From: Apostichopus japonicus
Lineage: Eukaryota > Echinodermata > Holothuroidea > Aspidochirotida > Stichopodidae
Direction: 5' to 3'
DNA length: 64,000 nt
Assembly: GCF_037975245.1 (NCBI RefSeq)
Contig: NC_092576.1
Coordinates: forward strand, 7,270,501 to 7,334,500
Shown one piece after another: positions 693 through 56,853 of the stretch. The translations under genes and the position numbers were made by a program. How positions within the stretch are numbered: the first letter of the stretch is position 1; every line of letters starts with the position of its first letter. Below the pieces are notes generated by a model, which saw only the letters and a list, made by a program, of their open reading frames with translations, had not been told where the DNA came from and ran no database searches.

Positions 693-2891
693 CTTGAGAA
701 TAGATTTCCCACAAGACAACACCAAAACTCCAGACGTCTGACTTTTCCACGTAATGGCCAATGAAAATTGTCTCTGGAGCCAACCATGCTGTCGGTGGAA
801 TTTTCTACAAGACAATAAGTATTTTATGAAGATTAGTGTTAAAAACACAAATAATAAATATGAGAAACTTGATACCTTTGCAAGTTAATGTGGCATTCTT
901 TGTTTACGTTTCGTTAGATTCCTTTCGAGCATGTATGTTCTTCACTTAGTTTGCAGAAGCTATTCTCATTACATTAACAAGTACCGTACTTTAAACTGCA
1001 AGACACCATATTGTACGAGTTATCTTATTTTCACTTACCTTTTGTAATATTTGATTTATTGAATCTACTGCCACGTCAACAGGACAAAAGTCATACAACT
1101 TGCATTTCCCTGCAGGAGTTAGAAGAACTTTCCTTGCAGAGAGTCCCGGATGTCGAAACTGCTTTACCAAGAGAAAAAAGAAAATAATAAATAATAAGTT
1201 AATGATTACGTGCAATGCGGTGATTACACATACGTGGTGTCGTTGTTAGAAGAAGATATATACCAAACCACACGCACTGTATACTGACGTGTGAATAATG
1301 TAATCAAGACAACTTTACAGATTGTGGCTCGATGAAAAGGGATTTCTTATTGAGCCAACAAAATTACCAGTGACTTCAAATAAATAAATAGTGGAGCAAC
1401 TACTTACATTTTGCTGGGCGAGAAAGAACATTCCTTCACAAATATCAACAGCAAATTGAGTCAGCTGTAAGTTTTTCTCCTGGTCTGGTACTTCCAGTTC
1501 AAGAGAATCGTCATTAGTCGTTGTTTTGCATTGTCTTAACATGTAATCTTTAAGTGTTCCACGTTCAATGTACTCTTGGTAAATAAAATAAGGCACTGCA
1601 ATGGGTAAAAAAAGTAGATACAGTAATTACCCAAAAAATGATTTTTGCTTTCACATAATATAATCTTAGACTTAAATTAATATTTGGTCACATTGATTAC
1701 ATTTCCGAACTTCACACTATGCTCATTCAGTTGCAAAATTGATAAACTTTACTATTGATATCTGAAGTAAGGCTATTGGCTGCTGCCTAGCCCCAACAAT
1801 TAAAGATGAAAAAACCAAAAAAAAAAAACACAATTCACACTCACTAGATAAGGTACATTATTGTATCTACTTCAAAGTTTATTGAATGCTTGCTAGCCTA
1901 TTGTCTCTACGAGTCAGTTTCGATCAGCATCAGTCTTTCTCACAGTAGAGTAACAATGTGCCTAAACGTAAGTTAAGTATCACTATGTTAGACGTAAACG
2001 GACAATAACCCTTTGAATTATCAATTAAATGATAACGATTATTGAAACTTAAAACTTACCTAATAAAGATTATTATACAGTTTACAATAACTTAATAAAT
2101 TGAAAGGACAACGACCGAATCTCCACTTACTTTAATTACATCCAAGTACCTAATGTCCTTTAATTTGGTGTGTATCAACGTACTGTGTATATAGTTAATA
2201 GTTGCTTCAGGTAAACACTACCTAAATATGTGTGGCACTTTATGTATCTGTACTCACCATCCTCCAGTGATGTCCCTATTAATTCTACGATGTTGTCATG
2301 TTTTGGTAGTGTCATGATAGCCTTTGCTATTGCTCGAAAATTAAAAAGATCTCTCATGCGAGCGCATTCTGTTCAAAAGAAATTCATGTAAAATGATTCA
2401 CGAAAATTCCAAATCAAGCTTCTTATAAATACTTAAAGTAATGAAAACCAATTAACATTATTTATAAATTGCAAAATGTAACACTTCATTGCAACAACCA
2501 TTGTAAAGTCATCACCATGAAACATTTAGTGACATTGGATAAATACTTCTTTTTCGAATTATACGAGTCGTGCAGCTTGTTCATCATTTAATGAAAACAC
2601 GAAGGAAGGGATACATTAGGTAACACATGGCAGCGATACATAGCATAGTGATTTCTGGCGACAAAGTCTACCTTTAGATTAGGGAATTGACCTATAATTT
2701 CAATAATCTGTCACCTGATACAGACTTCGCGATAACGTCTGTGACGGATAGTTTAGAACAAGTGACAGTAGCCTTCCAGTACGTCATGGGTCCATTACTG
2801 GGAAGCTGGAAATCTAGTTTAACATCACCGGCACTCAAATAGTTGTTTTCTTTTTCGTCACGTTGGTCACTAATCCCCGGAATGTTTTCTT
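693..2891 (-). other. Pseudokinase domain exons of gene 1
   Basis: Five exons cover the N-lobe to the middle of the C-lobe. The glycine loop is degenerate ([10 protein letters not shown]). The beta-3 Lys is kept (DVIAKSV). The alpha-C Glu position is Ala ([11 protein letters not shown], then HDNIVELIG). The hinge reads [17 protein letters not shown]. The catalytic loop reads [13 protein letters not shown], with D to G and N to K. The metal-binding motif is YDFCPVD. The activation segment lacks the usual YY pair. The fold-defining WLAPE and DVWSFG motifs remain. By general kinase knowledge, loss of the HRD Asp together with the DFG Gly and the loop Asn is incompatible with normal catalysis. 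Confidence 0.85.
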
Positions 2892-5800
2892 CTTGTTAGA
2901 CAGGAAAAATGATGGCAAAAGTATCATTAAAATATCAAAGGTGGTTACATGATAATTGTACACTGTGCATACATCATGACGTCACGAGGAAGAACATGCT
3001 ATTCATCATGCAAGTATAACGCTTAAACAGGCGAATAACTGTCATTTCAGTTATAATTGTTTGGTGTTACAGGTATTTTCGCTTTCGCCAGTCTTTTGTA
3101 TGCATTCAAGAATAGACATAGGTCTTTCGCTTGGTGCAACATACAAAGAATTAATCACGCCTGTCGAGTCCTCTTTGTGCCGTGCTGTTGTTAACGAAGT
3201 TAATCATTAACGAATAATTCCGTGGATAATTCAGTTATTCACATAACATCTAAATCTAAACGTATTTGCATCCGTCAAAACCTATTAAATCTTTACAGTT
3301 TCAATCACATGATGAATAATTGAAGCACACAGAATTCAAACTTAAAAAAATTTGTGTCAAACGAACAGAAGACTTCCTCGCTAAATAAACAAAATATGCT
3401 AACTGCGAATATTGCTTCAATTTCGTTATCGCGCCTAACTAAAGACCTTATCTTAACATAAAAATATATGAAATGAAGAATTTATTTGATCTCTCATGCA
3501 TACCTAACATAACTGACTCAATACTGTTTGACTGAAGAGGAGGAAGAGATCTCGTTGCCATCGCTAAGTGTGTTGGATGACTTTCTGTTGATGAGGCTTT
3601 ATATCTAGAAGTAGAAGAAAAATTTACAATATGAAAAATACCTATGTCACATGTAAGCCACGTGATATACGTTTTGATGACACGGTTTATAAACCAAGAA
3701 CGTTATCTAGCTGGTAGTACAAACTTACTAATCCATTAGTTCACTTAAAGAGTGTGAAGACTCGCGCACAAATAAACGTCTCATGTCGGTAATCTGACCT
3801 AGTTTTGACTGAGGTGTAACAGAAGTGTTAAACACCACCATCGATCCCAGCAAATACACACACAGCTTGCTACCATCAGTAATTAGACACTAGTGTACAG
3901 TCACCACAGGCAGCTACGGTCAAAACCCATAACACAGTATATAGAGCAGCTATGGACATCTCAGCAAGGGGTTGTTATGGAACTCCCTGATCTCAGGTCC
4001 AGCTAAAAGATAACAAGGTATCATGTTTCATTATTGTCAGGACAAAAACTTTGGAGCGAGTCTTCAATGCCATTAAGTACTTCGTGTTCAAGCCTACATC
4101 ACCAAAATAAATGAAGGAACTTTCGCTGTTTTGAGGAAGAACACTATGATTATTGTGTAATATTTAGTGTCAGTTCTCTGTATACAAATAAGAGCAAATT
4201 CTAAATTTGTCAATTTAAGATGGACTGACATAAGTGTAGCAATATCAAGAATGAAAATAAACAGAAAGGGTTAAAAGTAACACATATACATATGATAGTA
4301 AACAATAAGTCAAGTAAACAAATATTTTAAATGATACAAATCAAAATCGTGCTTGGAAATGGAGACAACAGAAATACGATACTTATAGAATCGTTTTCAT
4401 CGAATCAGAAATACTGATATGTCAGAATTTTGTCAGAAAATTCATATGGAAAAAAACTGCACGGGTTCTCTCAATTTTAGTATCAAGATTCTTAAACAGT
4501 TGTGATTCCGACGGTTGCCCATTACAAGTGTTCTTATGAGTAGTTCGGATGGGATCAGTCTGGAATGCTAGTACTCCTTTTTAAAATAATTGACAGGCTA
4601 CAACGCATACTAAACACCGCCGAAGGTCTCGTTACTAGAACTCGGAAGTATGATCACACTACCCCTACCATGATCGAACTCCACTGGCTCCCGATACGTA
4701 AATGAATCAACTACAAACTACTTCTGATAGTTTTCAAATGTATGCACAATGTAGGACCAAGCTACCTCACCAACTTGTTTCAGCTTCGCTATAATTCATC
4801 ACTGATGTTACTCATCCCTAGAGTAAAACACAGACTTACGGCTTGAGAACGTTCACATCCAGTGCACCGTGCCTGTGGAACTCACTTCCAGAACATATAA
4901 AAATATGCAATACTGTAAACAGTTTCAAATCAGCACTTAAAACGTATCTCTTCACCAATGCAAATATGTTATAATTGCTATTATTTTGTTAAGCGCTACG
5001 AGAAATATTTCATAGTTTGTTTGGCGCTATATAAAAATTACGTATTATTATTTCAATATTTATGTTTAATTTCATGTTTATCAAATGTGCCAATAAATGC
5101 TTACCTCGTAAAGTTTTTACATCGACGTGCTGCAGGAAAAAAAGCCACTAAGAGAGTAATGGATGAAATAATTTCTGAAATCTTTCTATGGGATGCTTAA
5201 TTTATATATTTGACTTGTTGAAAACTAGAAAAATTAAAATAAACATGTCAATATGAAAGTATTTTAAATTATATCAAAGTTTCGCCTCTAAAAAAAAAAA
5301 TAATGCGATCTGCTGATATTAAAGTTACGACACAATTTAGTGTAATTTTTTTAGGTTGATTTGCATTATTTTATATAAAAAACAGGAATATATTACTTGA
5401 CTAGTACCTGTCAACAGGTCAACTGCATCAACGATGTCTTTATTTGAATACGTGCAATTATAATCAACACGTAGATTATTTCCCCCTCAATTTAAAAGAT
5501 TTACAACGTAAAATGTTATCACAGATTCTTTTTAAGTGACAGGCAAACAATAACTTACTAGCGTTGATCTTCCAAAGTGCTGCTACGCAACAAGATAAAA
5601 TCACAACAACCGCAAGAAGGAGATAGATGTAAGTGATAGACGCATTTGGCTTCTGTTTCGGCTCTGCAAAAATCAGTGCAAAATAGAGTTTGTGAAAGAC
5701 CATCGTCTTAGCAAATCAATTAAAACTGTCGGTTTGTGACATTACGACACAGTGAGCACTTACATCTATTAAGTAAGCATATTTCACATATTACAAGCAG

Positions 5801-8800
5801 CACGTGTAATTGACAACATTGATCTGAATTGTATATATTAATGTCCTAATTAGTTATTCGACGTGCTCTGAAGTACTGCTATCATTATAATATATGTAAT
5901 AAAAATATGAGATCTTGAAAAATATCGTAATCATATTTTCTCGGATTGAGAGCTAAGAAAAACCTTTGATCGACTATTTTAGATGTTCAGGAAAACTTGC
6001 TTCATTTTTGTCGTATTATTTTTATACAAGTAATATTCTCAAAATAAAACAAAACTGTTAGAAAACTTATCCACTAAAGAGCATGTGTAAAAGAATGTGT
6101 AAAAGTAAGTTGGCCTGACGTTTCGATCTTAGCAGGATCTTCTTTAAAGAAATATTTTTGTGTTCACCATGCTCATTAACCTGTCTGTATTCTGTGCGTG
6201 TATTTGTCCCTTTTGTTACTGTTACTTGTCATTCAGCCCCTGAAGAAGATCATACTAGGATCGAAACGCCAGGCCAACCTCCTTTTACACAAGTAATATA
6301 CTTGCGTCCACGCACATTAATAATTCACTTCATATCACTTAAACTACGCTCAAGTGATTGTAGGAGTTTAAAGTTTGGTATAGAAAACATGTCAGATCGA
6401 ATAAACAACAAAAACCGTAAGAGGAAGAAAATAAATTCCATTAGCATTTGTATTAGGTAAGGCAAGAGCAAGTTAACATATTTGGTCTAACCAATGATTT
6501 CCTCTAAATTAAACCTGCCAGATGTTATAAAGCCATAGAAGTAACCTTTAAATTAAACGAGAAAATAAAAGCTCTCTGAAAGCAATTGCTGATTTATTAA
6601 GTAACCACATATGACAAACCAGATCCAAATCAAATTCTGAAACTTACCAACGATTTTTAATATCCTAGAAATGCTTGTTGTCGTTGAAAACAACTTGTCT
6701 TTCACCGCACATACGATATTGTCTTTTCTCCCAACCGGTATATAGCGAGTTGAGTATGTAGTATACATATAATTATTGGTTTGATTCACGTTTAGAGTGG
6801 CACTTGGTTGGTGGACACCACTGATTGACTCAAACCCGGAAGTACTGTTGATTCTCCAAAGAAGTCTATCATAGTCCGTTATTCCCATAATGATTGCAGT
6901 GCAAGTAACACTAACATATCTATTCTTAAGAACAATTACTTCTGCGCCGACATCTGTCCCGTTTACTATTCGAATGGATTGAATAGTTATTCCTGTCAGA
7001 TTATTAAGTAGAAAAAAAGGAAACATGTGCTACATTTCTTGAAACGCGGCTGTCGCTAAAAGTACTCCGTGTGATGGTTATTTAAAGGTTTCAAAATGTC
7101 TAGATTATTTTTAACAAAATAGCTGCAACAGTAGACTATGTTTTAATATATAGTACGTCAGAGACGTTAGTCTTGAATCTGTAATTGTCTATTATAAAAA
7201 GTTTCTATGAAAAACTGAAAGAAATTGGGACACAAATCAATAGTTGAAATCACCAGCGTTTGTTAACGCATAAAGTGAAATTTATCGCTTGTGAAAAAAA
7301 TCCTAGTAGTGTTATTATTTCAAATGTAGAACGATTTATGGTTGCACACTATTTGATAATAAAATATCAAACTGTTTGTATAAGATTGGAATAGTAATTT
7401 AGTATACCCGGAGTGCTTGATCAGTGCACCCTCCGATGTCTTTATGTTATATCTATGATCACGTGTACATAAAGTGTAGCTATTCCTCATCCACTTTTCA
7501 TCAAGATCAGCTGACTTTAAAATTTTGTTATATCCTTCTTTATATACCATTACTCTAACAAAATGGTCATCATTATGGAAGTAATTAATTTCAGTGAAGA
7601 AAAGCAAACTTTTTCTCGTGTAGTTGTAAAGGTTTTCGTATATTTTGTATATTTGATCAATGATTTGTCAGTTGCTATTCATAACATGTGTATGTCTGTT
7701 ACCATACATGTATCTTACTGCGATGTTTCAAGCTCAATTTTAGCAGTAACTTAGGAATAGTATTCTTTCATGAATAGCTCTGTGATTATTTCATTTAGAC
7801 TAGCATTTCAATCATTAAAGATACTGTACAAAAGGACAAGGCAAAAATCTAGAACATTTTGTGACAATAAAGTATCAGAAGCCTTATGGCCACATGCATG
7901 GATATTTGGATTTTAAAAACATAATGAAGTACAAGAAAACCAAAGTTCCATTGACTTAACACAAAGCAATACATATGACTTACCAAAGGTCTTTATGGTC
8001 CTTTGAGTAGTTGTTTTAAATGTTTTGTATCTGAATCTACACAAGATGTTTTCCCTCTCTTTCATCGGAATATGGAGGATTGTGAATGATGCAACAGTTG
8101 GAGAAGAAGAACTATGATTATGGCTAGCATATGACTCATTGAAATCATACTGTGTTGATATATTACGACCTATAATACTGATTATCCACTTAAGTCTGTC
8201 ATAATCAGTAAATCCAATTATGGCTGCTTTGCATGTAACCTTAAGCTGGGTGTTCCTGGCCACATGTATATCACCATTTGCATCAAATCCGTTGATCTTT
8301 ACTTCTATTGGTTGAAGATTTATTTCTGTGTTTGAGTAAAATATAAGGAAATGATTGATGTAACGTAAAATTGTTTGCCCCAGGCAAAGTTATTTTTCTA
8401 TCATCTGCGCATGTTTATTTGAATACATCATATAAACTGTATATACGTTGTATAACTCGTCTTTTGACAGATAATTTAATATCAAGGAGAAGAAAAAATT
8501 AAATTACTGAGCAACTGAAAAGTTAGAAAACGAAATACAACCGCACCTTATCTAGATATTTTGTATGTGTTAAAGTAAACCACCTTCATTCCTACTGATA
8601 CATGACGATACTCTTACCTATTGGATAAAATTCGTTAAAAGTACGACATGCAATTGAGTATTAAAATAGCATGACTGAATAAAAACCTGCAATCTCCAAG
8701 AAATAACTCTTTTTCTCTATTCCAGCTTCATCTGAGCAACTATACTTCCCTCTATGTTGATCATTGGTGGTTGCGATCCAAATAGAATTGTTCTCCCATA

Positions 8801-9005
8801 TCTTAATAGTTTGGTCAAAAGCTGTTTTATTGGATATTGTCTCGCCATCATGCTTCCAAATGAATTTTTTCGATGCCTCGCGCCCACATTGTAATGTCAC
8901 TGAGCTATTAATTATTCTCACTACGGTATCAGCAAGACATCCTTCAAGAAAACAATAAAATACTGTTATCAAAATAACAGTATCCACAGGCGTACTAACC
9001 CTCAT
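693..9005 (-). CDS. Gene 1: Ig-domain receptor tyrosine pseudokinase (3' end outside window)
   Basis: Ten exons read in one frame (minus strand, high to low): 9005-8687, 8325-7984, 6992-6648, 5663-5559, 3596-3504, 2891-2715, 2368-2258, 1595-1408, 1161-1039, 804-693. They encode 638 codons plus one base. The protein starts with a hydrophobic signal peptide (from [20 protein letters not shown]), then three Ig-like domains to about residue 335, a TM helix near 346-364, a juxtamembrane exon to 401, and a kinase-like domain from about 430. Every internal border is GT-AG and the phases agree. Kinase landmarks are beta-3 VIAK, HPG for HRD, ARK for ARN, DFC for DFG, then WLAPE and [19 protein letters not shown] and DFC predict no phosphotransfer. 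The last kinase exons and the C-tail should lie left of base 1. The first-exon donor (GTTTTT) is weak but equivalent donors recur in paralogues. The JM acceptor at 3596 was chosen by phase; an alternative near 3606 breaks the frame. Confidence 0.82.
3745..4076. mobile_element. TTAA-flanked MITE (piggyBac-like target site) in gene 1 intron
   Basis: The element is bounded by TTAA on both sides. Its ends are inverted: GTGTGAAGACTCGC on the left and GCGAGTCTTCAATGCC on the right. A second copy is at 27728-28093. The equivalent intron of gene 2 (near 38010-38045) lacks it, so it inserted after the segmental duplication, or was lost cleanly. TTAA duplications are typical of piggyBac-type elements; there is no transposase, so it is non-autonomous. 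Confidence 0.8.
4583..5057 (+). mobile_element. CR1/L2-like LINE 3' fragment in gene 1 intron
   Basis: Frame-broken translation on the plus strand gives the familiar end of a CR1/L2-type reverse transcriptase ORF: an arginine-rich start, [19 protein letters not shown], then a [19 protein letters not shown] segment and a [11 protein letters not shown] segment. It is followed by the common tail with GCGCTA motifs and ATT repeats. The 5' part is missing, as in most LINE insertions. Gene 2 has the flanking sequences joined without it (near 38355), so it postdates the duplication. Confidence 0.8.
6085..6295. repeat. Dispersed repeat with inverted hammerhead-like ends
   Basis: The left end carries, on the minus strand, a motif AAGA-stem-GAAACGTC (6113-6148). 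The right end carries it on the plus strand as CTGAAGA-stem-GAAACGCC (6240-6270). Outer flanks are also inverted copies around TTTTACACA. Related half copies lie at 21814-21955 and 50590-50735. It lies in the intron upstream of the gene 1 TM exon, inside a segment that gene 2 has lost. Confidence 0.7.
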
Positions 9006-9713
9006 TTCCTCAGTTTATACGAAAAGTTTCAAATAAAATGTTTGTTTAATATTATAGACAAAACTCCCTAGAGCTAGTTTTGGCAGAAATGCCGTTTATT
9101 TTGTGCTACTTCGGTCCTGCTTCAAATCAAAATCGATGAAAATGTTCATATTGCAAATCATTTTTGAAAATCATTGCCACCCTTGATCAGTTGTTCGAAA
9201 ACACGTTCATTCTACCCAAGAGATAACAAAATAATAAGCTAGAATTGGTTATGCCTTATCGATTCCGGATAGCTTTGTGAATTACGATTACTTTCACTTT
9301 TTAAGATGACATACTCCATATAAAGTGTTCCCATATATTAGGAAAACTGCCGAAAAGCAACCGCAGACTACATCACATCTTTTTTTTGATGTGTTATCAA
9401 ATAAAATATATTTGTTCTTAATTGCTTCGATGTCAGAGTACACAAATGGAAATATACGTGGTGCAAAAAAATGAGTCAATTAGACCACTTAAAGCCTCCC
9501 AGGAATAGCGTATGACAACTGTTCACTACTGTGTAAAGTGGTTTGTTAAAGTGACCGAAACTTCAGACTCTCATAGTGAAGAGATCTTCATTGTCATTAT
9601 ACGGAAACTTGAAAGTTCCATGAATGGCCAACGTGTCAGCTATCCAGTGATGGGTAGGTTTAAGCTAGTGAAAATTTTTAGGATATTAAAACCACATAAA
9701 TTTGACGATTTAG
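9006..9713. other. 5' flank of gene 1, no gene seen
   Basis: This stretch should hold the promoter and 5' UTR of gene 1. No convincing TATA box or initiator could be fixed. It is conserved in the right duplication copy (41179-41790) with small indels. Confidence 0.5.
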
Positions 9714-10150
9714 TCTATAAGTCAATGGGGCAATGATACGGAGTATGCTACCCTATGCAGTACAGTACCTTTTATGATTTAGTGTGTTAGTCAATGGCGC
9801 AATTATATGCAGTGTTCCACCCTATATAGAACCTTTGTATGATTTAAAATGGTACTTCATGGCGCAATTATATATAGTATGCTACCCTACACAGTATCTT
9901 TTTTATGATTTAGTGTGTTGGTCAATGGGGCAGTTATATGGAGTATGCTGCCCTATACAATACCTTTTAATGATTTACTGTGTTAGTCAATCGAATAATT
10001 ATATGTAGTATGCTACCCTATACAGAACCTTATTATGATTTAGTGTGGTATTCAATGGGACAGTTATATAGAGTATGATGCCCTATACAACAACTTTTTA
10101 TGATTTAGTGTGTTAGTCAACGGGGTAATTATATGGAATATGCTACATTG
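9714..10150. repeat. 65-bp tandem satellite, about 7 units (left copy)
   Basis: Units of about 65 bp start with a variant of GTCAATGGGGCAATTATATG, continue through a GAGTATGCTACCCTATACA-like stretch and end with TTATGATTTAGTGTGTTA. The same array lies in the right copy of the duplication at 41790-42440. The ORFs here follow the repeat and are not genes. Confidence 0.9.
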
Positions 10151-13100
10151 GACGTTCACATTTCCCAACGTTGTGATCATTATCAATTCATTTCTGTGAT
10201 CATTGTGAGACAATGAAAATATCTGAAGTAAGCACATGATACAGTTAGCACATCTCTCGCAAAAGCAACATTTTGACGGGCGTTTGCTATTTTATGTGGT
10301 GTTATGTGATTTAATAAACTATTAAATAATGCTAACAGTGTGTTTTAAGCGTAACTTGCCAATTTAGGCGTGGTCGTCATGAAGGCTGCTTTCAGAATAT
10401 GTTATTTTAGTTATCAGCAGCATTTAGTTCAACGAACACCGAAAAAAAAAACATCTGCAACGTTCGCTTGTGTGTAGCTGTTGCATATTCATTTGCAATG
10501 CGCCATCGATTAACATAATTTCAGACAGTAGAAACAGTGATCTACGCTGGATCGAACCGGTTCAAACTGAAATTCAGCTTGAAATATTTACTAGTGTTTC
10601 GTTGCACCCACCTTCATGTTAAAGGAGAACTAAACACTAGCCTTTTCTGCGTAGAGAATACCGTTTTGCAGTACGCTCTTTTCGACATAAGCAACACGAA
10701 TGTTTGCAAACTTTCTTTTGACCTTAAAAATCGATTTAATTGATACCAATGGCATTTGCAAGCAAGTTTTGTTTTAATTCCGACTTTTCGTGACGTAAGA
10801 GAGCCACATATCGCATTCCAACAGAAAAAGTGTTGTCAATTTCCAAAAAAAATAATTAGAATTGCACCAAGCAAAATGAAAGTAATATGCATGCGTTAGA
10901 TAAAAAGGTTTGTTTATCATTCCTAAAGGACATGCTAACATTATGTCACGGATGTTTTTGTAGAGAGCAGTCGTTAAGGCCGTAAAGACTAGGACAGAGA
11001 GCGTATATGAGTTTCAATCTGCAATATAATTTTAAACACCAATAAAATTAATAAGAGTTAGATAGAAGCATTTGTCTATATAATCTGTGGAGTGTTTACA
11101 TCTATTTCGTATCTGCTGCATATGGTTTCTTGTTTCATTCATGGCCTCGTCTTCACTCGGTCTCAATATCATTTCTCCTTTTGGCTTGTTCATTGCGATT
11201 ATGTACAAAACATGTTCTCCTTTTTCTTCTAGCATGTCTCTATATGAGCGTTGGCTTTCGGCCTTGGTTTCACGCTCTCTTTCTTTCTCGTTTCAGCTTT
11301 TATTTCCTCTTACCCTCCCTTTCCAACGTCAGAATAGTAGACTCTTTAACCGCCTGTTGAAAATCTCCAAGATTGATATATTTTAGTCATTGAACATAAT
11401 ATGGCAAAAACATAAACAGGAAGTTAAGCATATGTAGTATGTGTTCTTTGTATATTCTGCATTATGAGGCATTTAATACTTAACACAAAAGTTCTTGAGT
11501 GCCTGACCCAGTTTATGAGGAATCCACTAAACCTATGAAATATCACTATAACAAGGGGGTGGGTTTGTAAGTGGGTTACGTATTCTTATTCCACTTCTAA
11601 AGTTCCTACGTCAGCCGATACTCATAGCTAGTACAGTAACTATACTGGTGTCACATGTAACATATTTACCGTGTATAACGAACACAACGTAGTAATGATT
11701 ATCGAGTACCTTCGTCTGTGTATAACATTACGGATAACTACAAACAGTAAATGTATGTGAAATACAGCAGTTCATATCAGATATTGTGTTTTTCGAAACC
11801 TTATCTTTCTCAAAGCAAGACACAAATTAACTATAGTTTTAAGGTTTAAAGGTTCTGTAAAAATGATTTATTCTCCCATTCGTGAATCCTGCAAAAACAT
11901 ATGGTAGATTGTTGATTCTTTGTTATTGCCTTACACAGTTAATTCGTCCTTTTCCAGTGCCGCTAGAGCATAGACAGACGTTTTCAACTGGTATGTCCTA
12001 CCAACCATTTGAAAGCTGGTGGCTTGAGCTATTAAAGCTTATTAGGGGATGATAAAGTATTGATTATTTAATTCTTCTCTGATTTTGTGTTGTCATGACC
12101 ACTCACTGATGTTAAATGCATCGCTAAAGGACATTAAACTGCAGATCATATCAGAAATTGTGTTTTCCGAAACCTTACCTTTCTCGAAGCAAGACACAAA
12201 GTAACTATAATTCTAAGGTTTTAAGGTTCTGTAAAAATGATATATGCTCCCATTTTTGAATCATACAAAAACATATGGTAGATTGAAGAAGGAAAACAAA
12301 AACATAAATAAATACAAAACTCTGCGTTGGCTGAAGGGTAATGCCGTAATTAAAGTAGACCAATCAGATTACATGACATCAGAAAAAAGCTAGCCCTGCT
12401 CTGTGTATATCTCATAGACATTCCTTGAAGAATTTAATACAACTATTGCTCAGAATAACAACCTAACAGTCCCACTAATACTCGCTGATCCTGTTTGAAC
12501 AAAATAAATAGAATAAAAGGTAAACCTTGTCACTATACGTAGAATAATTGGTCAAACGAACAGTCAGTGAAAACATGTTATTTCTTTAAAACTTTATCAA
12601 CGTTCATAACGCTATGGTTTCTTCGAATATTAAAAATAACTCTGTACGTGGCGGTCACTTCTGTAGAAAAACAATACTAATAATCTCGTTTTACATATTT
12701 TTATGTTCAAAACTGAAAGTTTCATACAATAACCGTTATTACATTTGTTGTAGTAGGAAGTAAAGATAGCACGCTATTCCATAATGTCGCTGTTAACCAT
12801 AGTACTCAAAAGTAATCTAGTTATTCATGGTTCTTCCTGTTACTATACACGTATATCATCTCAACTGTGTTGAAAGTACTTAAGTTACAATGACGTTTTC
12901 AATAGCAAAAAGTGCAAACATTTATTCCATTTATTGTTTTCAGTTTCAAAACATTAATAATAATCACTTGTTTTAAATTCAGTTTAATTTTATTTGTGCG
13001 ACATATGGACGAAAGCCATGCAGATAAATATTAGGTGGACTTTCCCATCACGTGTTATCATCACTCAGTCTGCTCGCACAATGTTAATATATATTATTTT

Positions 13101-18945: not shown

Positions 18946-19010
<65 letters not shown>

Positions 19011-32646: not shown

Positions 32647-32648
32647 TA

Positions 32649-46010: not shown

Positions 46011-49000
46011 TTATTGATCAGTTTGGTATGACTTTGCATTATTACCTACATTGGAAACATCAATATAATCATTGTTGTCACCATCCTCTGAGGCCAAAAC
46101 GAAATAATTAGGTTCCTCGGGATCTTCTCCATCGTCCGAGCATCCACTTGCCTACAATAGAAGGGATTACAGAAAGGGTAAGCACATTAAAACTCACAAC
46201 TTTAAGTAACTGACGGTATAGAGTAAGAAAGGTGATAACAGAAAGAAAGCTATATGTAGTAGCTATTTGTTAAGTGTTTTGTTTGTTTAACTTTACCTGC
46301 TTCATATTCTTAAGAAACGTCATGAAGGTGTTTCGAAGGCTCCCGAAAGACGGCCTCTCTTCAATGGATGAATTCCAAGTGGAGAGCAATACGCCAAATC
46401 TGTGTGTGGAAATTAAGTTGATGAACCAATTCCGTAACATAATATAGTTCCCCATTGACCGTGGATTAATGCATATTAGGTAATGTTTGTTACCTACTCA
46501 CAACATTTGAACGTGACACGCGTTGGACGAAACTGAACTTGAGGCAAACAGGTACGATATCATATATGCACACTGACATATTTGTGTATTAACTTTTTTT
46601 CTTGTGCGTCTTCTTTACAGTAAGATATGTGTATGTGTTAGTGTGTATGTGTGTGTATGTGTATGTATTTTTATGTATATAGTTATGTGTATGAGTATGG
46701 GAATCGGTACGGAACTTCATATCTCCTCAGTCAAAATTGAAACCTTCTTCAATCCAAAGTCAAACCTATAAAGTGAAGATAAAGAAAGGTAAAACCAAAA
46801 CCAACAACGAAACAGTTTGCTTTCAGCCTGCAATTATAAGTTCACTTATGATACAAACAGCAACATTTCAATTATCAATATCTGGATAAAGCAATATTCA
46901 AATTCCTTTGCAAATTTCACCATATTTCTTAGTGTACTTCCTCGTTTATTATTCCAAACAATTTGTCCTCTGAAATATCATTTTATGTTTTGTTTTACTG
47001 TCATAAGATAGCGAACCTGCCTTTTGTATGATGTGATGTTTGTTTGCACGTTGGTTAGAGAACAGTTCATAAAATTAATACTCACAACCCTCCTGGACAC
47101 GCTAGTGGCTGATCAAGGTTGTCTTTTGCTCTCAGTTTCTTTTCAATCTCTGGACAAGTCAAACCTCCAAAAGGGGTGTCACCTTACCATTGAACAGGAA
47201 AAAGAAATTTATACAATTCCTGATAGACAGTTACACATAGTTAAAGAAGTAGATATAGGGCTTCAACTGTAATTCCTTCCAAATAGTGTGTAATATGTTA
47301 TAAACTATAGAGGAATTTATGTAAGAAAGTATTTTGTTAAGGATTCTGTTTAACGCCCATCATTACACAGAGGAGTCAAAATCCTAGCCATGCCCAAGGA
47401 CAATTATGCCACCGGGCTCCTGTGGCACTTTTCCAACGTTTCCAACAGTATGTTATACATATGAATACATAACCAAATACAACCCCCCCCCCCCCAACCA
47501 CCTTATTCAAAACAAACCCTTCCTTTTATAAGGCCTAACCATACCAAGAGAGTAAATCTCCCAGACAACAACTCCAAAGTTCCAGACATCTGATTTTTCC
47601 TTATAGTGACCCAAGAAGACAGTTTCTGGTGCCAGCCACGCCAGAGGAGGAAATTTCTGGTTATAGGGAGAGAATAAGAAAACCGAATTCCTGTTACCGT
47701 TTTATGCGTGCCACCTTTTGCAAAACAGACAGTCTGTTTTGTTCAGATGAGAGAGACTTAATGGTGTGCCACGGAAGGCTTATGTACTACATACAGATCC
47801 GTCTCAAGAGTAATAACATGTGCCCATTATATTCAAGATATTTCTTACATAGTATTCTACTTATTCGCTTTAAGCTCTGAACTTAGCAAACGTTTACAAT
47901 TACTTAAAACCAGCATGCATTTGCTTTTGTTTATGATGCTTTTGGTTTCGCAGTCAATTATTACCAAGCTACGTGTCACCTTGTGCCATTGTGCGATATA
48001 GTGTACATATAATCATCATGTATGAAACTTTATATGTACATTAACACATTATATTATCATGTAACAAATACGTATTTTTCTAGAACTACTATAACTTTGC
48101 TTGAATAAATTCTGAATAGTACATGCCACTTCAAACACCACATGTCAAATGTACCATATTAAATAATTATTTATCTGTTGAATAAACATAAACCATGAAA
48201 TCAGAAAATGGAGCCTATTTTTTGTTAGACACCGTTTGTCAAAGTTTCAACTTACAAAATCCGATGTAAATCACAATTAAGACCAGAGTGTCTAATCGTT
48301 ATTCCTACATTTCAGCACGCCTTGGTACACAGATTCTCTTAATACTAATATCAATAACAACATAAATCGTCTTTACCGATTGGAGAATGCTGTCCACCCT
48401 CTCCTGTGCTAAATCTACAGGCCAAAAATCATACAGTTTGCATTTCCCACTTGAAGTAAGAAGAACTTTTCTTGCAGCAAGTCCAGGATGGAGAAACTGC
48501 AACGAAACCAAAATCACAAATCGACATCTGTTACTAAATGACTTTTGTTGATTAATGTTTATCTAGTGAAATGAAAGCAAGAGGCGTAACTTTGTTCGAT
48601 CATTATAAGATCCTTTGTGTGCTAATTAATCACATAACAACTAATTCAGAAAGGAATACCCAAGGCATTTTACGGTTTGTTGGTAATAGAAGTAACGTAA
48701 GTTATTCTATAACGATAACGAAGGTCTTGTACAGGTTTCGTTTGTCACGGCTATATTGACAGGAAAATGGACAGTTTCCTGTTTATCAACTGTCATATAC
48801 ATAGACTTATCTAAATATTGTAGATTTATCACTAAACTATTGACATAAATATTAATCGTGCATGTTAGAAAGGATGATGTAAAGTAACTCAATGCTCAAT
48901 TGAAATGGTTCCCAAAGTTGTTCTCAAAATTTAAGGTATATTTGTATTCAGTCTTAACGCGATAGAAAATCCAGAGTGTTTAGGCTGACTTTTTTTGGTA

Positions 49001-52000
49001 ATATAAACAAAGAGAGTAAACATACGCGCCTTTACAAAGTGCTTTCCTTTCTTTAGGCTAGTACCCAATTGTTTCTCAATGGTAAATATTGGTTGTAACA
49101 TGGAGCTATTAGGAAGAAAAGTCCATATGCATCGAGACTAACTCTTACCTTTTGACTTGCCAAGAAGAACATTCCATTACATACGTCTACTGCGTAAACG
49201 GTCAATTGTAGCGTCTTCTCATGCTCGGCCAGTTGTGCAGTCGCGACCTTAGAGGAGTCACTGAAGTGCTGATAATTTCGCAGGAGAACATCCTTGAGCG
49301 TTCCACATTCGATATGTTCTTGGTAGATGAAATGCGGTACTTTGAAAACAAAATGAATGAAAACAATATGGCCGTCATACATCTTTGATGCTGTAGTCTC
49401 TAGAGACATTCGTAACGTTAATATTTACTTTATATAATTTTTAATTTTTCTAAGAGCTCAAATAAGTGAGTAAGGCTAGATGGGAATGCTTGGACTAGTT
49501 CTCAACTATAGAAACAACTATAGGTACAACTATAGAAACAACAGAGTCAGTAGACTATTAAACATATTTGGAAATAGTTTCCAGATTAACTTTAACCAAT
49601 AAAAGATAGCCGTCATATATGCTGCTCTCAAAAATGAGAGTAACATATTATTCGATGCAGCAGTAGCTCAACAAATCCTATTTTTTTGGCATGATTTCAA
49701 ACTTGTTTATGCATATTAGAAGTACAAACAGTCTGGCAAATAGAGAACGTTTTGCATGAATGTGGTATTATTTGTTTGAAAATATGTTTCAAATTTGAAT
49801 AAGTCACAATTACTCGAATTTTGATAACACAAAATAATTCTTTAACTTTATGTTATATCTATTTCATTTATAGGATTAAAATGTATCATAGAGCCGGGGG
49901 TTGGGGGGGGGGCACTTGGGGCACGTTCCCCTATTTTTTTTTCCAAAAGCAAATGTGCCCTACTGGCAAATAAAATGTGCCACTTTGATGAAGTCTTTTG
50001 GATATCTTAAGCCTTTGTTAATTTTAATATTTTATTTTAATTATTAATTTTTAGTCTGTAGATGCTTTTTTTTTAAATGGCATTCTATATCTTTTTGTAA
50101 CACGGTTATAAACAATATCAATAAATATTATTGATAGTATATTAACAAATCATATATATGTAAGTGATATGGCCGATGTGTATCGGTTTATAGCATAACG
50201 AGTGGTGGTTGTGGAATGAGAAAGTGACCCTCTGATGTTGTGCTCCCCACACTTTTGGAAGCATCCTACCCCTAGATCATATCATATACTCACCGTCCTC
50301 TAGAGCGACTCCGAGTATTTCAGCGATATTCTCGTGCTTGCGTAACGTCATCACGTTCTTTGCCAAGGCACGAAAGTTTAACATATCTTTCATTCTTGCG
50401 TCATCTTTATTAAATAAAGAAAGGGTGCAGTATGTTAAAAGAAACTGTTTTCGTTTTGGTTGCCAGTATTCAATCACGATTTCGCAAAAGTTTCACAATA
50501 TGGCAGCATTGAACGGCTATTTAGGGGCATTGGCATAGTGGGCGATCAGGGGGATAAATATCCCTAATTGTATCATCAATTATAAAATGTGTAAAGTAAG
50601 TAGGCCTGACGTTTCGATCCTACCAGGATCTTCTTCAGAGGCTAAATGACAAGTACAGTAACAAAAGGGACAAAAACACGAACAGAAAACAGACAGGTTA
50701 ATGAGCACTGTGAACACAATGAGATAGATGAAAGGGGATTATAAAAATATAAAATGTCAGAGTCATTCCTCCCTTGAAACATATTTATTGTGCCTGAAAA
50801 TCGCCAAGAGAGATATACCTCAATATCAATCAGCTTTCTATTTAACCGCCTCTAAAATCGGTCAACATGAATCAACACTTACCCTTTAAAAGGAATACCT
50901 TTATACAACTTTGTTAACTGCTATAAATAAAAAAAAAGACTGATGTCGACTTGCGGAGACTACCGAGTATTATACAACGTTCAATTCTTTTATGAAGCAT
51001 AAAGAGTAACATATGATACGTTACATAACGTTCCGAAAACGTTATTATGTTGTAAGTGTGTAACATAATGGCGTGCTGCATGTACGAAATTATGACGATA
51101 CGCTAAGAAACCAATGGAAGATTTGTAAACTGTATATAATACTTAAGATTTTCTTCCTCAAACGTCCTTACCGGAGACAGTCTTCGCGATGATTTTGCTT
51201 CCGTTACCATTTATAGTTGTAGTAGTAGCGAGATAGTATTTAATGGTACCTTCACCTGGTAGTTGACATGTTAGCTGTACGTCGCAACACCGCACTACCA
51301 ATGCATCGTCCTCATTGGAAATTATTGTGACTCTGTCTTGAGGATGGTGTACTAAATGTTTCAACGATAGAAAGTCAGCTTATCATAGTGATTTTCCTTT
51401 CAATTCAAGGTCTACTTTGTAGTTTCAAAGTTTAAAAATGTGAGACGAAGGATTTCAAATGCGTCTGAGGTCGTAACAAGTTGTCATGAAAAGTTGCCCA
51501 AAGAAGACGGAAAATTAATTGATTATATTTGTTCCACCAAGTGACACTTTGTTTGTAAATACAGCCCACGTATTATAATTATTTTACTATACAAAATTTC
51601 TATAGCGCCTTAGCCAATCAGAAATTGCTCTAAGGCGCTTTACAGTAATATACATACAAACATGATATACAAATATATAAATCGATAATGTAAGGTATAA
51701 AAAGGGTAGAACATTTGTTATATACAATCTAACAATAAATTGTATAAAAAACTGCAAATAGGAAATCGAAAATTATAAAAAAAATCTAAAAATATTTAAA
51801 ATTTTTAAAGCGCTATACATGCAAAATGGAAAATGCGTTGTACTAATGTGACAATATTAATAGTATAGAAAGCACGGTAATGGAATGCAGATCTAAATAG
51901 AAAGGTTTTGACTAGTTTTTTAATTTCATCTATATTTTTGGCACACTTAGCTTCCTCCGGTGAATATGTAATGATTATACAAAGACGTATAACTGAATGT

Positions 52001-55000
52001 AAACAAATCTCTTGGTTCACTTGTACTAAATATATATTTTATTTTTAAGGCATGCGCTATTTTTCATTCTCATTCATGTCATTGTTTTAATTGTTTAAGT
52101 TGTTTAAGTTTAATTGTCTCAGAATTGACTTATGAATTTGTGAAAAGGTAAATCTATTTTGGAAATATTCACTGGTTGTGGAATTATCTATTACAAACAT
52201 TTCTTAGCAAATAACTTACTTACCCATATCAATTCCTTCGGTTCTCGTAGTATTGGTTGGTAAAACCTCTCGAGAAACCGAGGGCACGGGTATAGTGACC
52301 GATGAAGCTGACAAGCTAAGTATTAATAAACATATACTTACTATTCGTTTTCGTTTTCGTTTATTTATTCAATCTAAAGAGTAGGCCTTCATTCTTTACG
52401 TACAACATGATAACAATGATATGTACTGTGTGATATCAATGTTTTCCTATATCAGTGAATAGTATACTCATAATTAGTTCAGTTCAGTATATAGAGGAAT
52501 ATATCCCGGCATTGGAGGTGCTGCCCCGGGACCGTTTGATTGTTGAGACGATAACTAAACCCGTTATATTTCACGTTCTCCCGTCCACCACAAGAAGTAA
52601 TGCGATATGTTACGATAAAATTAACGATTTTATATGATGAAATATTAACATTTTGTTGGACAAAATACTTTTTTTTTTTTTAGGAATGTTCGAGGATGTT
52701 AACAATTAAGCAAATATATGTCTTCGTGAGGACGATACCAATACGATCAAAAACAAACTCAATCAAAATGTTACATTTATACTAATCTGATGGCATCTTA
52801 ATCGATATTTCAAAGGAGACAAACAGGGTACCTGAAAACTAAACATCTGTTCTATAAAAATCTCACTTTTCAATTCATTGAATTTTAACAGAGACCCAAC
52901 ACCGACCTGTAAAATATTAAAGTCGGTAGAGTCTGACAAATGTCAACCAAATGGTATTAAGTGCATTTAAAGTCTTAAGTCATGTTGAGTGTGAAAATTA
53001 GATGGCTTATAGTTATGAAGAATGGCTAATGATGTTCATGTTCTACCGAGACATTGCTGAAGCAGTCACTGATAATTTGAGCTTACCTTGTGCGAGTCAC
53101 GATACTAGGAGCTATGGAATTAAAACCAGACGAAGTTGAAATTTGCAATGTTGAGATAGACAAAGGACAGAACAACAGCGTGAGATTAATCGTATTTCTG
53201 CTTTTTCCATTGATTTCTTTTGATGTTATAAATTGATTGGAACATAAAACAAGACAATATCGTTTACACAGGAACACATATCTCAAAAAGGAGTTTGTCA
53301 CAGTAATTAAAAAGTAATAATAATTATTGAAATTATGCTAATGATGTCAAGTGACATCGAGTTTCAATGTTCTTTTTGTATATGGCAGAGTACTTCATTT
53401 CCAAGACAAAACCGTAAAAATAAATGTAATTATATGTTATAGATTAAATGTTATTGCATCCAGCCTTATAAAATGTCTTCAAACAGGTTTTTTTGACAAG
53501 ATATTCCGCACCATATTTGGTAAAAATGTAAACCTAAAACTTACTTGAATACTTCTTTCGAAGAAACAGCAAAAGAGGGATGCTTATTACTATGGCAATA
53601 ACCGGCAGTATGGAAATTATTAGTGTCCACGGGGTTGACTTTACTTCTTCTGTAATCTCTTCATATCCCGTTGTGGTAATTACGTCTGAAAGAACTTGTA
53701 AGAAAATGAATGATAATGAATTACATATAGTAGGATATAATTCTCAGTCTAATAGAGATACCTGGGTTTGGTATCAAAACAATTTACATGTTGCCTGTAG
53801 CGATTTGTCAAGTCTTTAATTCATGATACCTTATCCGTGCATTGCGAAGTCAAAAAAAAGTAAAAGTAACTTCTTTTGTAATAGGACACAAACAGAATGT
53901 CACAAACGTAATGCAATTTGCATGTTGCATCAAAGATGTAGATATTTTTTTGTAAATTGCAATAAACTAAACAGAGGATGGGGTGGGCTATTTGCTCCAT
54001 GCATTAGTATGAACATGAAGGCCATATTTAGCAAAATATTAATATAAATGTTTATGCAGTTTGTTGAAATTGATCGATGATGATGACTTTTTACCTCTTA
54101 CTCTAATGGTTTTACTCTGATTTACTGAACAGTACTGCGATTCGCTAGCTATGCATTGGATACTTCCACTGTCACGTCGAGGTAAAAAGTTCATCTGTAT
54201 TTCTCGTCCACTTCCATTTACAAAATCATTACTGCTGATATTGATTTCTTCATTTTTTACTTCCCAATAAAGTTCAGTGTTTATTGCTGGTTTCGTTACA
54301 TTGCAGATAGCAAATGATTCAACCTTGCTATCAACATCAATCAAAGTTTTCATATTTTCTCCGTTGATCCACAATGTCACCTCGGGACAAACTAAATTAA
54401 TAAAAAGTCGAATAAATAAAACAAAAATAAAAAATCTAGCGTAATGTTATATCACCAATAAAACACACGATTGTTTGGATATCACTCTTTCATAAAGTAA
54501 CTTTTGCTGGACATTTCTTGGCAAATTTTCGACACAACAGTGTCGATAGATCATTGGTTCAGGAAATATGAATTTCATATTTCATTGCAATGGCTATTCA
54601 TACTAAGATAGGTTCTAACTTGTGATTCTTCGGTATTTATTGGGTTTTCACCGTCATTATTAGCATTACCCAGAGGTAGCGTTGGAAACATTTTGAATAT
54701 TTTATGTCACTGACATTTATCACAACTATTAAGCAAGAAACATTCAACGGTTCACGTGGTTTGGAAAGAGTGGATGTCGTAATTATACAATTATACAACA
54801 TAATAAAGTTCACTGAATTATCTTACGTACAAATATAGAGATAAGCAAAGTTTAGTTTTATTAAAAAAGCAAGTCAGAATAGCTTTTTTAAACTTTGGAA
54901 TTATTGTTTATGAACGGCGTTAAATGTATTTACCTTGTAAATGATTTCACTTAATCGTTATAACCACTTTCGCTCACATATTGTTATTACAATATTAACA

Positions 55001-56853
55001 AATTTGAAATGATCAGGTTTAAGTTTACTTTAATGATTGGATGAGTCCTTACCGTTTGTTTTGTAATCGACTATAACATTAACCACCTGTGTGTGACCTA
55101 CAATACTTCGATCAATACTGGTACATGTTATCGTTCCTTGGTCAGACTCTAAAATTGTACTGAGCATCGCGGTTTGGTCCACTAATCTGTTTACATCTCC
55201 ACGTGTTGAGTTGAATGAATCGATTGATGAATTTATTGTTTGATTGTTCAGAGTCCATTTCAGCTCTATCGGTGCTCTTGCTCCTATGGCGCAGCAATAT
55301 GCAGTAAAGGTCTCCTCGGCATTAACAAATATCTCATTGGTCTGGCGTGAGCCGTTTTGATTTTCATTGGAAAAATATTTGGATCCATTTATTGTTATGT
55401 AAACCTCTGGAGTCACTATCGACAAAACAATGGAGATGAATTCAATTAACATATTATAGGTATTAGTAAATCATTGATTTCCAGAATTATTTCCAAAGCA
55501 TATACTTGCATTCTACTACGAATAAATGTTAACTTTATGAATGCAAATGATAAATGATTATACAGTCACAATACCATGTACTGTCAACAACAGAAGAATC
55601 GTACCGGTCACGTTAACCATCTTTGAATGAACCATAGAATTTTAAGGATGTGCGAAGCAACTTTGAAGTACTTTAACTTAATATTTCGGAAAACACATCT
55701 TAATAAAATAATATTACTTGAATTGAAATGAAACCAGTTCATTGCTTTTTAGACTAACTGATGCACCCGGCTGGCATATAAGTTAGTGCTATGAGAGAAA
55801 TGAAGCTGTTATATTAAATTTTTAAGTGTTACTGTAGCCACTAGATTCAGCGTGGTGAAATCAGTTCGTGATTCTATGAGTGCAGTTTTCCCATCAATTA
55901 TCAAGTAGTTCTCCCGTGAAGGAATTTACTGATTACATACTGGAGAAAGCAAGTTGTTCACAACGTCGGTGACGATTCATTAGTCTGCAACCAGAATTAC
56001 CTTGATAATTATGATATCTTGTATTAAAAACCTAGTCTTTGAAATCTCGCAAATTATTGAGATCTGTTTAAATGCAATATTTAATACTATATCTAGGGCG
56101 ACACTGGCAGAAGACATATTGTTAGTAGCTTCATAATTTTCAAACAAGAACTCATTTTTTTCTTGGTTCCATTTACAACTAAAGGGCATCCAAACCGGTA
56201 AAATTACCCATTGCATTAGTGCAGAAGATAACTCTTTATATTACGGTATAGGACAAGATTACACTGACATGTTTTTCATTCAAAAATTCTCTATAGTGTC
56301 TATAAAGTAACAAGAACTTTTGTTTAACAGTACTGTAACAGTATCAGTTACATTATTATAATTGCATTTTAAATTTATTACATAACTATATACATCGTTA
56401 TCGGTATAGGCTAACTATCTAATAATTTTAAGTGCCAGTCATGTCGTTACATTCTATTTATATTTTGCATTTGCTTAAAAATGTGAAAAATTAAGTTAAA
56501 CACAAACCTTTAATTTTCAAGGTGTAGTTTATTATTATTGACTTGTTGTCACTATATGAACAATCATAATTCCCTTCGTGGTTGACAGAGATTTCTTCAA
56601 TCCAAAGTGAGTTGTTCGTCAGTACTGATAAATTCGTCTGTTTAAAGTTACTCGCTTCTGTTATCAATATCTGTCCATTATAAGTTAGCACCGTTTGCTC
56701 ATATCTCCATTGTGTCAAATACGAATCCACTCTCTGACAATCAAACGTCACATAACTGCCGATGCTTTTAACAATCAAGATGGCTACCGTAGACGGCGGT
56801 AAAATAATGAAAATTAATTTCAAAAGTGCTGGAACTCTTAACGTTACTTCCAT
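46011..56853 (-). CDS. Gene 4: complete Ig-domain receptor tyrosine pseudokinase
   Basis: Thirteen exons (minus): 56853-56508, 55415-55053, 54391-54095, 53685-53545, 52307-52224, 51351-51172, 50404-50294, 49339-49149, 48496-48377, 47656-47545, 47182-47086, 46399-46297, 46151-46011. Lengths sum to 2286 nt, 761 residues plus TAA, and every phase agrees. Order: signal peptide and Ig1 (to 115), Ig2 (to 236), Ig3 (to 335), TM helix near 353-375 ([17 protein letters not shown]) followed by RKK, juxtamembrane Ser/Thr-rich exon, kinase-like domain about 435-712, C-tail with NYFVL and NDYIDV. Kinase motifs: IIAK beta-3 Lys kept; alpha-C Glu is Ala; HPG for HRD; ARK for ARN; DFW for [23 protein letters not shown] and a final W..S.EERPSF kept. 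Catalysis is therefore not expected. The tail tyrosines could recruit SH2 proteins or act as YxxPhi sorting signals (inference). Ectodomain has many N-x-S/T sites. Confidence 0.87.
49890..50010. repeat. G-run repeat fragment
   Basis: A G run followed by GCACTTGGGGCACGTTCCCC and AAATGTGCC blocks resembles the GC-rich stretch at 18749-18790 in the hAT-like element. Probably a degraded element end in the gene 4 intron. Confidence 0.4.
50590..50735 (-). repeat. Dispersed repeat with best hammerhead-like motif
   Basis: On the minus strand (about 50645-50600) the sequence reads GCCT, CTGAAGA, A, GATCCT-GGT-AGGATC, GAAAC, GTC, AGGC. This matches hammerhead core strands CUGANGA and GAAA, with helix II of 6 bp, helix I of GCCT/AGGC, and a minimal self-complementary ACGT helix III. 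The rest of the unit matches 6149-6240 and 21814-21900. It lies in a gene 4 intron. Confidence 0.65.
51575..52005 (-). mobile_element. CR1/L2-like LINE 3' end in gene 4 intron
   Basis: Read on the minus strand, a [18 protein letters not shown] segment is the usual end of a CR1/L2 reverse transcriptase ORF. It is followed by a tail containing GCGCTTTAAAAATTTTA and a hairpin TAAAGCGCCTTAGAGCAA..GGCTAAGGCGCTATAG. Only the last few hundred bases are present. Confidence 0.65.
55985..56235 (-). pseudogene. Degenerate Ig exon between Ig1 and Ig2 of gene 4
   Basis: A frame on the minus strand keeps Ig spacing: SCKWNQEKN, then [15 protein letters not shown], then IIIIK before a GTAATT donor-like sequence. 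The expected start of an Ig exon and a pyrimidine tract with AG are not visible. It is either a dead Ig exon or a strongly diverged one. Skipping it leaves the gene 4 frame intact. Confidence 0.4.

Follow-up and report, generated by a model that had tools for sequence, protein, structure and literature searches.

A tandem array of immunoglobulin receptors with kinase-like domains that lack catalytic residues in the sea cucumber Apostichopus japonicus

The 64,000 nucleotide stretch of Apostichopus japonicus DNA analyzed here (positions 7270501-7334500 of contig C16, NC_092576.1; the window) falls, on the evidence of its sequence, within a large array of immunoglobulin (Ig) receptor genes whose family has expanded. 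We consider it probable that an FGFR-like kinase domain in this family was inactivated, most simply once and before the family expanded, and that it has been kept as a folded, non-catalytic module. The best reading of the genes is thus a retained family of non-catalytic receptors that may act as scaffolds for other kinases. The first-pass annotation had described a tandem cluster of Ig-domain receptor pseudokinases. The cluster is real, extends past the window and belongs to a genome-wide family, whereas two of its window members, gene B and gene 3, have decayed.

The window is animal-type DNA with short exons, and its minus strand carries all three kinase copies (A, B and gene 4) together with gene 3. 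Scans of the window with Rfam and for tRNAs returned no RNA family and no tRNA, and a viral-contig scan found no relatives. Exon chains were built from motif searches (HPG...DFC/DFW and WLAPE), splice-site scoring and comparison of paralogues. This gave two complete 14-exon models, both on the minus strand, encoding 749 (A) and 772 (gene 4) amino acids. Each begins with a signal peptide and three Ig or Ig-like exons, followed by a transmembrane (TM) helix, a kinase-like domain and a two-tyrosine tail. The exons of the two models follow the same order with the same phases, and both models include a juxtamembrane micro-exon of 25 nt. Gene 4 runs from 56853 to 46011 with GT-AG junctions, matching phases and a single stop, at its end. 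Its kinase-like domain had been annotated as open over eight exons, which holds for the kinase part plus tail; all 14 exons are in fact open. The exons of gene 4, in order of transcription, are:

56508-56853, minus strand: exon 1, signal peptide and first Ig domain (Ig1)
55053-55415, minus strand: Ig domain exon, with weak Pfam Ig matches
54095-54391, minus strand: last Ig-like exon, with a Cys/Trp/Cys pattern and no Pfam Ig match
53545-53685, minus strand: transmembrane exon
53087-53111, minus strand: 25-nt micro-exon, the sole candidate above the scan thresholds
52224-52315, minus strand: juxtamembrane exon
51172-51351, minus strand: kinase beta1-beta3 exon, Lys kept
50294-50404, minus strand: alpha-C exon, Leu in place of Glu
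49149-49339, minus strand: hinge/alpha-D/alpha-E exon
48377-48496, minus strand: catalytic-loop exon, HPGLAARK...DFWP
47545-47656, minus strand: WLAPE/DVWNFG exon
47086-47182, minus strand: alpha-G exon
46297-46399, minus strand: alpha-H/I exon
46011-46151, minus strand: tail exon, EPNYFVL...DYIDV, TAA stop

A further Ig2-like stretch of gene 4 at about 55983-56240 (minus strand) is probably skipped; it looks vestigial, since in-phase splice sites for it were not found. Gene A has 11 exons inside the window without a stop, and its last three lie to the left, where one splice-site combination in the scan gave an open frame through the tail. A weak point of this model is the poor donor of exon 1 (GTTTTT). 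An extra juxtamembrane exon at about 3184-3070 was excluded for its weak donor. The window exons of gene A are:

8687-9005, minus strand: exon 1, signal peptide and Ig1, open, phase 1 donor, Ig-like below Pfam cut-offs
7984-8325, minus strand: Ig2 exon, 1-1 phase, Cys/Trp/Cys pattern, no Pfam match
6648-6992, minus strand: Ig3 exon, Cys/Trp/Cys pattern, no Pfam Ig match
5559-5663, minus strand: transmembrane exon
5105-5129, minus strand: 25-nt juxtamembrane micro-exon, required by phase and paralleled by the 25-nt candidate of gene 4
3504-3604, minus strand: juxtamembrane exon
2715-2891, minus strand: kinase beta1-beta3 exon, beta-3 Lys kept
2258-2368, minus strand: alpha-C/beta4 exon, Ile in place of Glu
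1408-1595, minus strand: hinge/alpha-D/alpha-E exon
1039-1158, minus strand: catalytic-loop exon, HPGLSARK...DFCP
693-804, minus strand: WLAPE/DVWSFG exon, with the three further exons left of the window

By profile, A and gene 4 contain a tyrosine-kinase domain behind an Ig ectodomain and a single TM helix. The Pfam family PK_Tyr_Ser-Thr (PF07714) matches gene 4 with an E-value of 6.8e-48 and A, without its last exons, with 8.8e-37, so that chance can be dismissed as the source of the match. In a PDB sequence search the closest solved structures were FGFR1-3, and the 60 best matches of A also include CSF1R. An EGFR construct comes first for gene 4, the reason being that it contains the kinase twice. 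This ranking of PDB sequences suggests a placement in the FGFR/PDGFR/VEGFR (FPVR) subgroup, nearest the FGFRs. The kinase part aligns to FGFR2 from strand beta-3 to helix alpha-I. Relative to FGFR2, A and gene 4 read HPG in place of HRD and DFC or DFW in place of DFG, with the Asp of DFG kept, and their loop Asn is replaced by Lys. The first-pass annotation had reported these replacements in all three kinase copies, and they were recovered in A (1158-1039), B (35444-35325) and gene 4 (48496-48377). It had also reported the Glu of alpha-C as lost to Ala. The loss stands, and the Ala was rejected, as alignment places Ile (A) or Leu (gene 4) at the Glu position. The beta-3 Lys is retained (VIAKSVS / IIAKTVS), as are WLAPE, DVWxFG, the alpha-G block and ERPSF, and the APE, F-helix and alpha-I blocks remain in both proteins; of the retention claimed for the beta-3 Lys, WLAPE and DVW.FG, the part that fails is gene B, in which the Trp of WLAPE has become TGA. 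The Gly loop reads GEGTIK in gene 4 and is degraded to SNGPMT in A. Neither protein has a Tyr between DFx and APE.

To place the window genes in context, we read 100 kb on either side (264 kb in total) and searched the whole assembly (671,581,487 bases in 35 contigs, of which C16 has 46,036,110). The left flank contains A-type copies at -92 and -44 kb and gene-4-type copies at about -73 and about -29 kb. A gene of greater divergence lies between +68 and +71 kb, and Ig exons of the gene 3 type recur several times in the flanks. Searching the assembly with the gene 4 kinase domain returned at least 137 matches, among which we counted 52 related loci with the WLAPE exon (about residues 183-222) on seven contigs: 20 on C16, 18 on C12, six on C1, and two each on C7, C11, C20 and C21. 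Eight longer or more distant overlapping matches fall outside the 52 (two each on C2 and C8, one each on C3, C5, C10 and C13). Three of these (L001-L003) have HRD...N...DFG intact; over the aligned part, their identity to gene 4 is 27-32%.

We read 46 catalytic-loop exons of the family. Seven come from the array (three in the window and four in the flanks, excluding the exon at about -28 kb with a frame break), 18 were reached through a match to the catalytic exon and 21 through a C-lobe exon. The 18 came from 20 fetched stretches, two of which had been chosen by other exons and were without a catalytic-loop exon. The 21 came from 27 loci. For five of these, the fetched 1.3-1.4 kb showed no catalytic-loop exon; L072, one of the five, may be the locus to which the exon read as L040, 3.7 kb away, belongs. 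Another of the 27, L075, reads DFGLSR and is more distant. The 18 loci lean towards gene 4, as they were found through the catalytic-loop exon itself; the 21, picked independently of that exon, agree with them. At the HRD position we found HPG (22), HPA (16), HPV (5), HPE (1) and YPG (1), such that the Asp is absent from all 45 readable exons (the L074 stretch begins after the motif). Lys replaces the loop Asn in all 46, of which 25 were scored by script and 21 by eye. The DFG position is DFWP in 21, DICP in five, DFCP in four, DFVP in three, DIRP, DIWP and DFLP in two each, and six other sequences once each; Gly is absent from 45 of 45 readable exons (L049 is broken there), and the Asp is kept in 45 of 46. 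L076 on C21 has also kept the beta-3 Lys and lost the alpha-C Glu. Since the losses of Asp, Asn and Gly are common to all readable family exons, the inactivation most simply predates the expansion, and a single event is the simplest account. This supports the earlier proposal that inactivation came before the duplications. Close active paralogues, the finding that would have spoken for isolated dead genes, were searched for and none was seen among the family exons read, the HRD/DFG kinases L001-L003 and the DFG-bearing L075 being more distant.

Selection on the kinase exons was assessed from the ratio of nonsynonymous to synonymous rates (dN/dS) in pairs of copies; the pair counts overlap, such that pairs are not independent events, and the broken exons of the copy at about -29 kb were left out of the gene-4-type comparisons. 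Between A and B, the kinase exons differ by 9 nonsynonymous and 10 synonymous changes, giving a dN/dS of 0.24 (Fisher p 0.0025), or 0.30 without the alpha-C exon. Aligned non-coding bases near these exons (0-3 kb) are 6-8% different between A and B, about the same as dS, compared with 11.6% for the whole duplicated unit. The gene-4-type pairs gave 0.19, 0.25 and 0.31 (p below 0.04), the lowest being gene 4 against the copy at about -73 kb (p 2e-5). A against the -44 kb copy gave 0.15 (p 7e-4), and the -92 kb against the -44 kb copy 0.24 (p 0.007). For A versus gene 4, pS is saturated at 0.83 while pN is 0.27, with a bootstrapped difference of -0.66 to -0.46. Provided that the catalytic losses are shared by descent, the domain was already inactive when this constraint acted on it. 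The family thus has the two marks expected of pseudokinase receptors, lost catalytic residues and a kinase-like domain under selective constraint. A functional lineage of non-catalytic receptors, as first proposed, is supported by the values of 0.24 for A/B and 0.15-0.44 for the six pairs without B; a dN/dS near 1 over the kinase-like domain was looked for and is not seen in those six pairs.

The Ig exons behave differently. In Ig2 and the shared part of Ig3, A and B differ by 57 nonsynonymous and 15 synonymous changes (odds ratio 1.08, p 0.88), and the nonsynonymous rates of the kinase and Ig2/3 exons differ with p 6e-14. Across 15 Ig2 pairs, drawn from six exons of which three belong to one gene, dN/dS was 0.52-1.25 in 14 and 2.16, on 2 synonymous changes, in the other. 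Fast-changing Ig ectodomains had been predicted, and this describes Ig2 well and Ig1 less so. A profile built on the Ig1 exons of all four window genes (A, B, 3 and 4) recovered 41 PDB sequences at E-values up to 0.01; contactin-1 (3e-13) alone has a stretch that passes on its own, the other 40 passing by whole-sequence E-value. Single Pfam Ig matches are weak and, except for gene 3 Ig1, below the curated cut-offs, and A Ig2, A Ig3 and the last Ig exon of gene 4 have no Pfam Ig match. A profile of the Ig2-type exons found nothing significant among PDB sequences, and we call these exons Ig-like because of their Cys/Trp/Cys pattern and 1-1 phase.

The cytoplasmic tail carries the motif EPxYxxL...DYI[DE], two tyrosines in an acidic stretch that are conserved between the A and gene 4 types although these differ at most synonymous sites. 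Gene A ends DEPRYASLEKDSLGGDYIEHIM. Conservation of the motif extends to the gene at +68 kb, which reads EEPNYFSLDKDSSDDDYIE (E 0.01). The pair has the form YxxL-x(8,9)-YI[DE]. This fits the first half of the immunoreceptor tyrosine-based activation motif (ITAM), Yxx[LI]-x(6-12)-Yxx[LI]; the second half is YIDV or YIEH. The ITAM label was rejected, as the second motif is without Leu or Ile at +3 in both types.

Several observations weigh against a retained receptor family. Two of the four window copies are decayed. In the left flank, neither gene-4-type copy is intact. At about -28/-29 kb the frame of the catalytic-loop exon is broken; at about -73/-74 kb the kinase exons are open, but the tail exon has an altered acceptor and a broken frame. 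Gene 4 is therefore the sole gene of its type within the 264 kb in which no defect was seen. The kinase exons of the -92 kb copy against A gave 0.44 (p 0.17), not significant; the kinase pairs of the flank comparison that include the dead copy B gave 0.30, 0.60 and 0.73; all A/B Ig exons pooled gave 0.77, not significantly below 1. Ig1 values are 0.31-0.85 over six pairs, and Ig2 values near 1 would fit relaxation and diversifying selection alike, between which they cannot separate. Finally, some kinases regarded as dead are active. A rival reading is that of a graveyard, in which recent receptor duplicates decay without function and frames are open merely through youth. In its favor, B and gene 3 are disabled, frames are broken at about -28 and -74 kb, alpha-H/I remnants at -67.8 and -23.0 kb bear stops, and the catalytic-loop exons of L049 and L061 are broken. 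We nevertheless judge it unlikely as the explanation of the family, given that A and gene 4 are open over 14 exons, that five of the six pairs without B have dN/dS values of 0.15-0.31 in their kinase exons, that pS far exceeds pN between A and gene 4, and that the same residue signature is retained on seven contigs.

Two other accounts concern what the retained domain might do. Unorthodox chemistry, such as nucleotide binding or another transfer reaction, might make use of the beta-3 Lys, which A, gene 4 and L076 retain, together with the DFG Asp and the new, invariant loop Lys, whose presence in 46 of 46 exons suggests a selected role. This appears improbable in view of the loss of the catalytic Asp from every readable exon, of the alpha-C Glu from A, gene 4 and L076, and of a regular Gly loop from A. 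Alternatively, the proteins could be decoy or cis-modulating receptors whose ectodomain captures ligand or dimerizes with an active FGFR/VEGFR-type receptor, the cytoplasmic part being of minor importance. Gene 3 retains Ig and TM exons without a kinase N-lobe, and the kinase-less FGFRL1 shows that such a mode exists. In the copies compared, however, constraint is stronger on the kinase exons than on Ig2, and the tail tyrosines are conserved between types, which leaves this account quite unlikely.

For the retained, non-catalytic receptors that we favor, a working mode can be proposed. The Ig ectodomain, of which Ig2 is the least constrained domain, would bind a ligand, upon which the receptor would cluster. 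The pseudokinase would dock, or partner allosterically with, another kinase or an active receptor, and this partner would phosphorylate the two tail tyrosines, which may then recruit SH2 proteins. Another kinase would be needed for this step because the receptor's own looks dead. A putative role in immunity or recognition would fit the turnover of the array and the change in Ig exons. More tentatively, it is possible, if rather doubtful, that more than 50 fast-turnover Ig receptors of the sea cucumber form a recognition system built from a dead kinase, in which a receptor tyrosine kinase inactivated once is the conserved module that couples their changing ectodomains to a two-tyrosine tail; the putative signature of the class would combine HP[GAV]L and D[FI]x (for DFG) with a Lys that invariably replaces the Asn of the catalytic loop.

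The two decayed window genes differ in what remains of them. Gene B is a pseudogene and a segmental duplicate of A. In its WLAPE block the Trp codon has become TGA, its alpha-C exon has lost 11 nt by deletion at the end, and its third Ig exon is truncated. Two splice sites are changed as well, the AG preceding the TM exon and the GT that follows the micro-exon. Gene 3 has Ig and TM exons followed by alpha-G, alpha-H/I and tail exons; kinase exons preceding alpha-G, from the N-lobe to WLAPE, were not found in its locus (13.8-20.5 kb). In the 3' exons it shares with gene 4, dN/dS is 0.98, as expected if gene 3 is decaying. Its TM donor and alpha-G acceptor (14986-15511, minus strand) look phase-compatible, and a kinase-less gene 3 receptor that ends at the alpha-H/I TGA might be spliced in frame. 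The stops in B and gene 3 are both Trp to TGA. That TGA might be read as Trp was considered and rejected in view of the other damage to B, an out-of-frame deletion and the altered splice sites. The parts of these genes are:

34217-41178, minus strand: gene B, pseudogene, segmental duplicate of A
33451-33558, minus strand: gene B tail exon, EPRYASL...DYIE
13758-20548, minus strand: gene 3, as a whole
20497-20192, about 19730-19400, 17547-17221, 17186-16992 (partial) and about 16840-16560, minus strand: gene 3 Ig exons
about 15511-15398, minus strand: gene 3 TM exon
14986-14890, minus strand: gene 3 alpha-G exon
14147-14045, minus strand: gene 3 alpha-H/I exon, Trp to TGA
13898-13758, minus strand: gene 3 tail exon

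Comparison of the window with itself by blastn revealed a segmental duplication in two copies:

478-15131: duplication unit, copy 1, matching 34753-47330
34753-47330: duplication unit, copy 2

Most long blocks are 85-93% identical, and one block of 729 columns is 75% identical. Both ends of the duplication sit in the WLAPE-alpha-G intron of a family gene, from which we infer unequal crossing-over between paralogues. In the left flank, two tail exons with identical translations (-55979 and -11728) lie 44 kb apart and point to a recent large tandem unit. Both copies of the window duplication contain a minisatellite of 65-nt units (9765-10208 and 41853-42165), and a second one, of 58-nt units, lies at 59062-59583. 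Other features of the window are an Ig1-like remnant on the plus strand at 60766-60974 with a stop and a frame break, inverted repeats at 28939-31443 with 492-nt arms that are 98% complementary and nested tandem copies of about 147 nt, and open reading frame pieces at 58575-59823 (minus strand) that by eye resemble the end of a non-LTR retrotransposon reverse transcriptase and are candidates for one. Elsewhere in the assembly, many tandem PF07714 matches of like score to profile positions of about 116-187 occur on C17 (13.17-13.61 Mb), C18 (8.70-8.85 Mb), C19 (8.83-9.14 Mb) and C21 (13.30-13.48 Mb), and look like one or more other expanded clusters of kinase exons.

In the open-access literature, we found no paper that describes such an echinoderm family by title or abstract, genome annotations and subscription papers lying outside that search. 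Two papers touch on the subject: one defines the FPVR subgroup and names CCK4 as pseudokinases (PMC8662651), and the other compares the oyster and sea urchin kinomes, in the part seen without the word pseudokinase (PMC4883820). If the interpretation given here is true, some 52 loci of a single genome, with one shared inactivation, an invariant residue in place of the loop Asn and a dead domain under constraint, would constitute a natural experiment on the retention of a kinase fold after catalysis is lost, and the family would be a candidate variable-receptor system in an echinoderm. To our knowledge, the animal receptor pseudokinases (PTK7, ErbB3, ROR, RYK and EphB6) are few and mostly single-copy.

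Among known systems, the FPVR kinases resemble the sea cucumber family in their Ig ectodomain and single TM helix, and FGFR1-3 are its best PDB sequence matches. The family is unlike them in being without HRD, the loop Asn, the alpha-C Glu and the DFG Gly: the catalytic Asp is present in 0 of 45 readable exons, Asn in 0 of 46 and Gly in 0 of 45 readable. PTK7/CCK4 (Drosophila otk) is likewise an Ig-domain receptor with a pseudokinase, and the Ig1 profile lists the otk ectodomain (whole-sequence E-value 5e-11, with no single stretch passing). PTK7 is mostly single-copy, with seven Ig domains and a different pattern of kinase motifs. By contrast, A and gene 4 have three Ig or Ig-like exons each, 52 loci were counted, and the signature is HP[GAV]/K/D[FI]x; neither the seven Ig domains nor PTK7-type motifs are seen, and PTK7 is absent from the 60 best PDB kinase matches shown for A and gene 4. 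ErbB3/HER3, whose kinase is dead or weak and which signals through partner kinases and tail tyrosines, is like the proposed working mode, and differs from the family in the expansion and array layout of the latter and in an EGFR-type ectodomain not seen here. The paired Ig receptors of vertebrates, with tails containing ITAMs or the corresponding inhibitory motifs (ITIMs), differ in that here a pseudokinase stands between TM helix and tail and there is no canonical ITAM. They share Ig ectodomains, tandem arrays and a tail tyrosine pair with the sea cucumber genes, and their logic is analogous to that of the recognition receptors proposed here.

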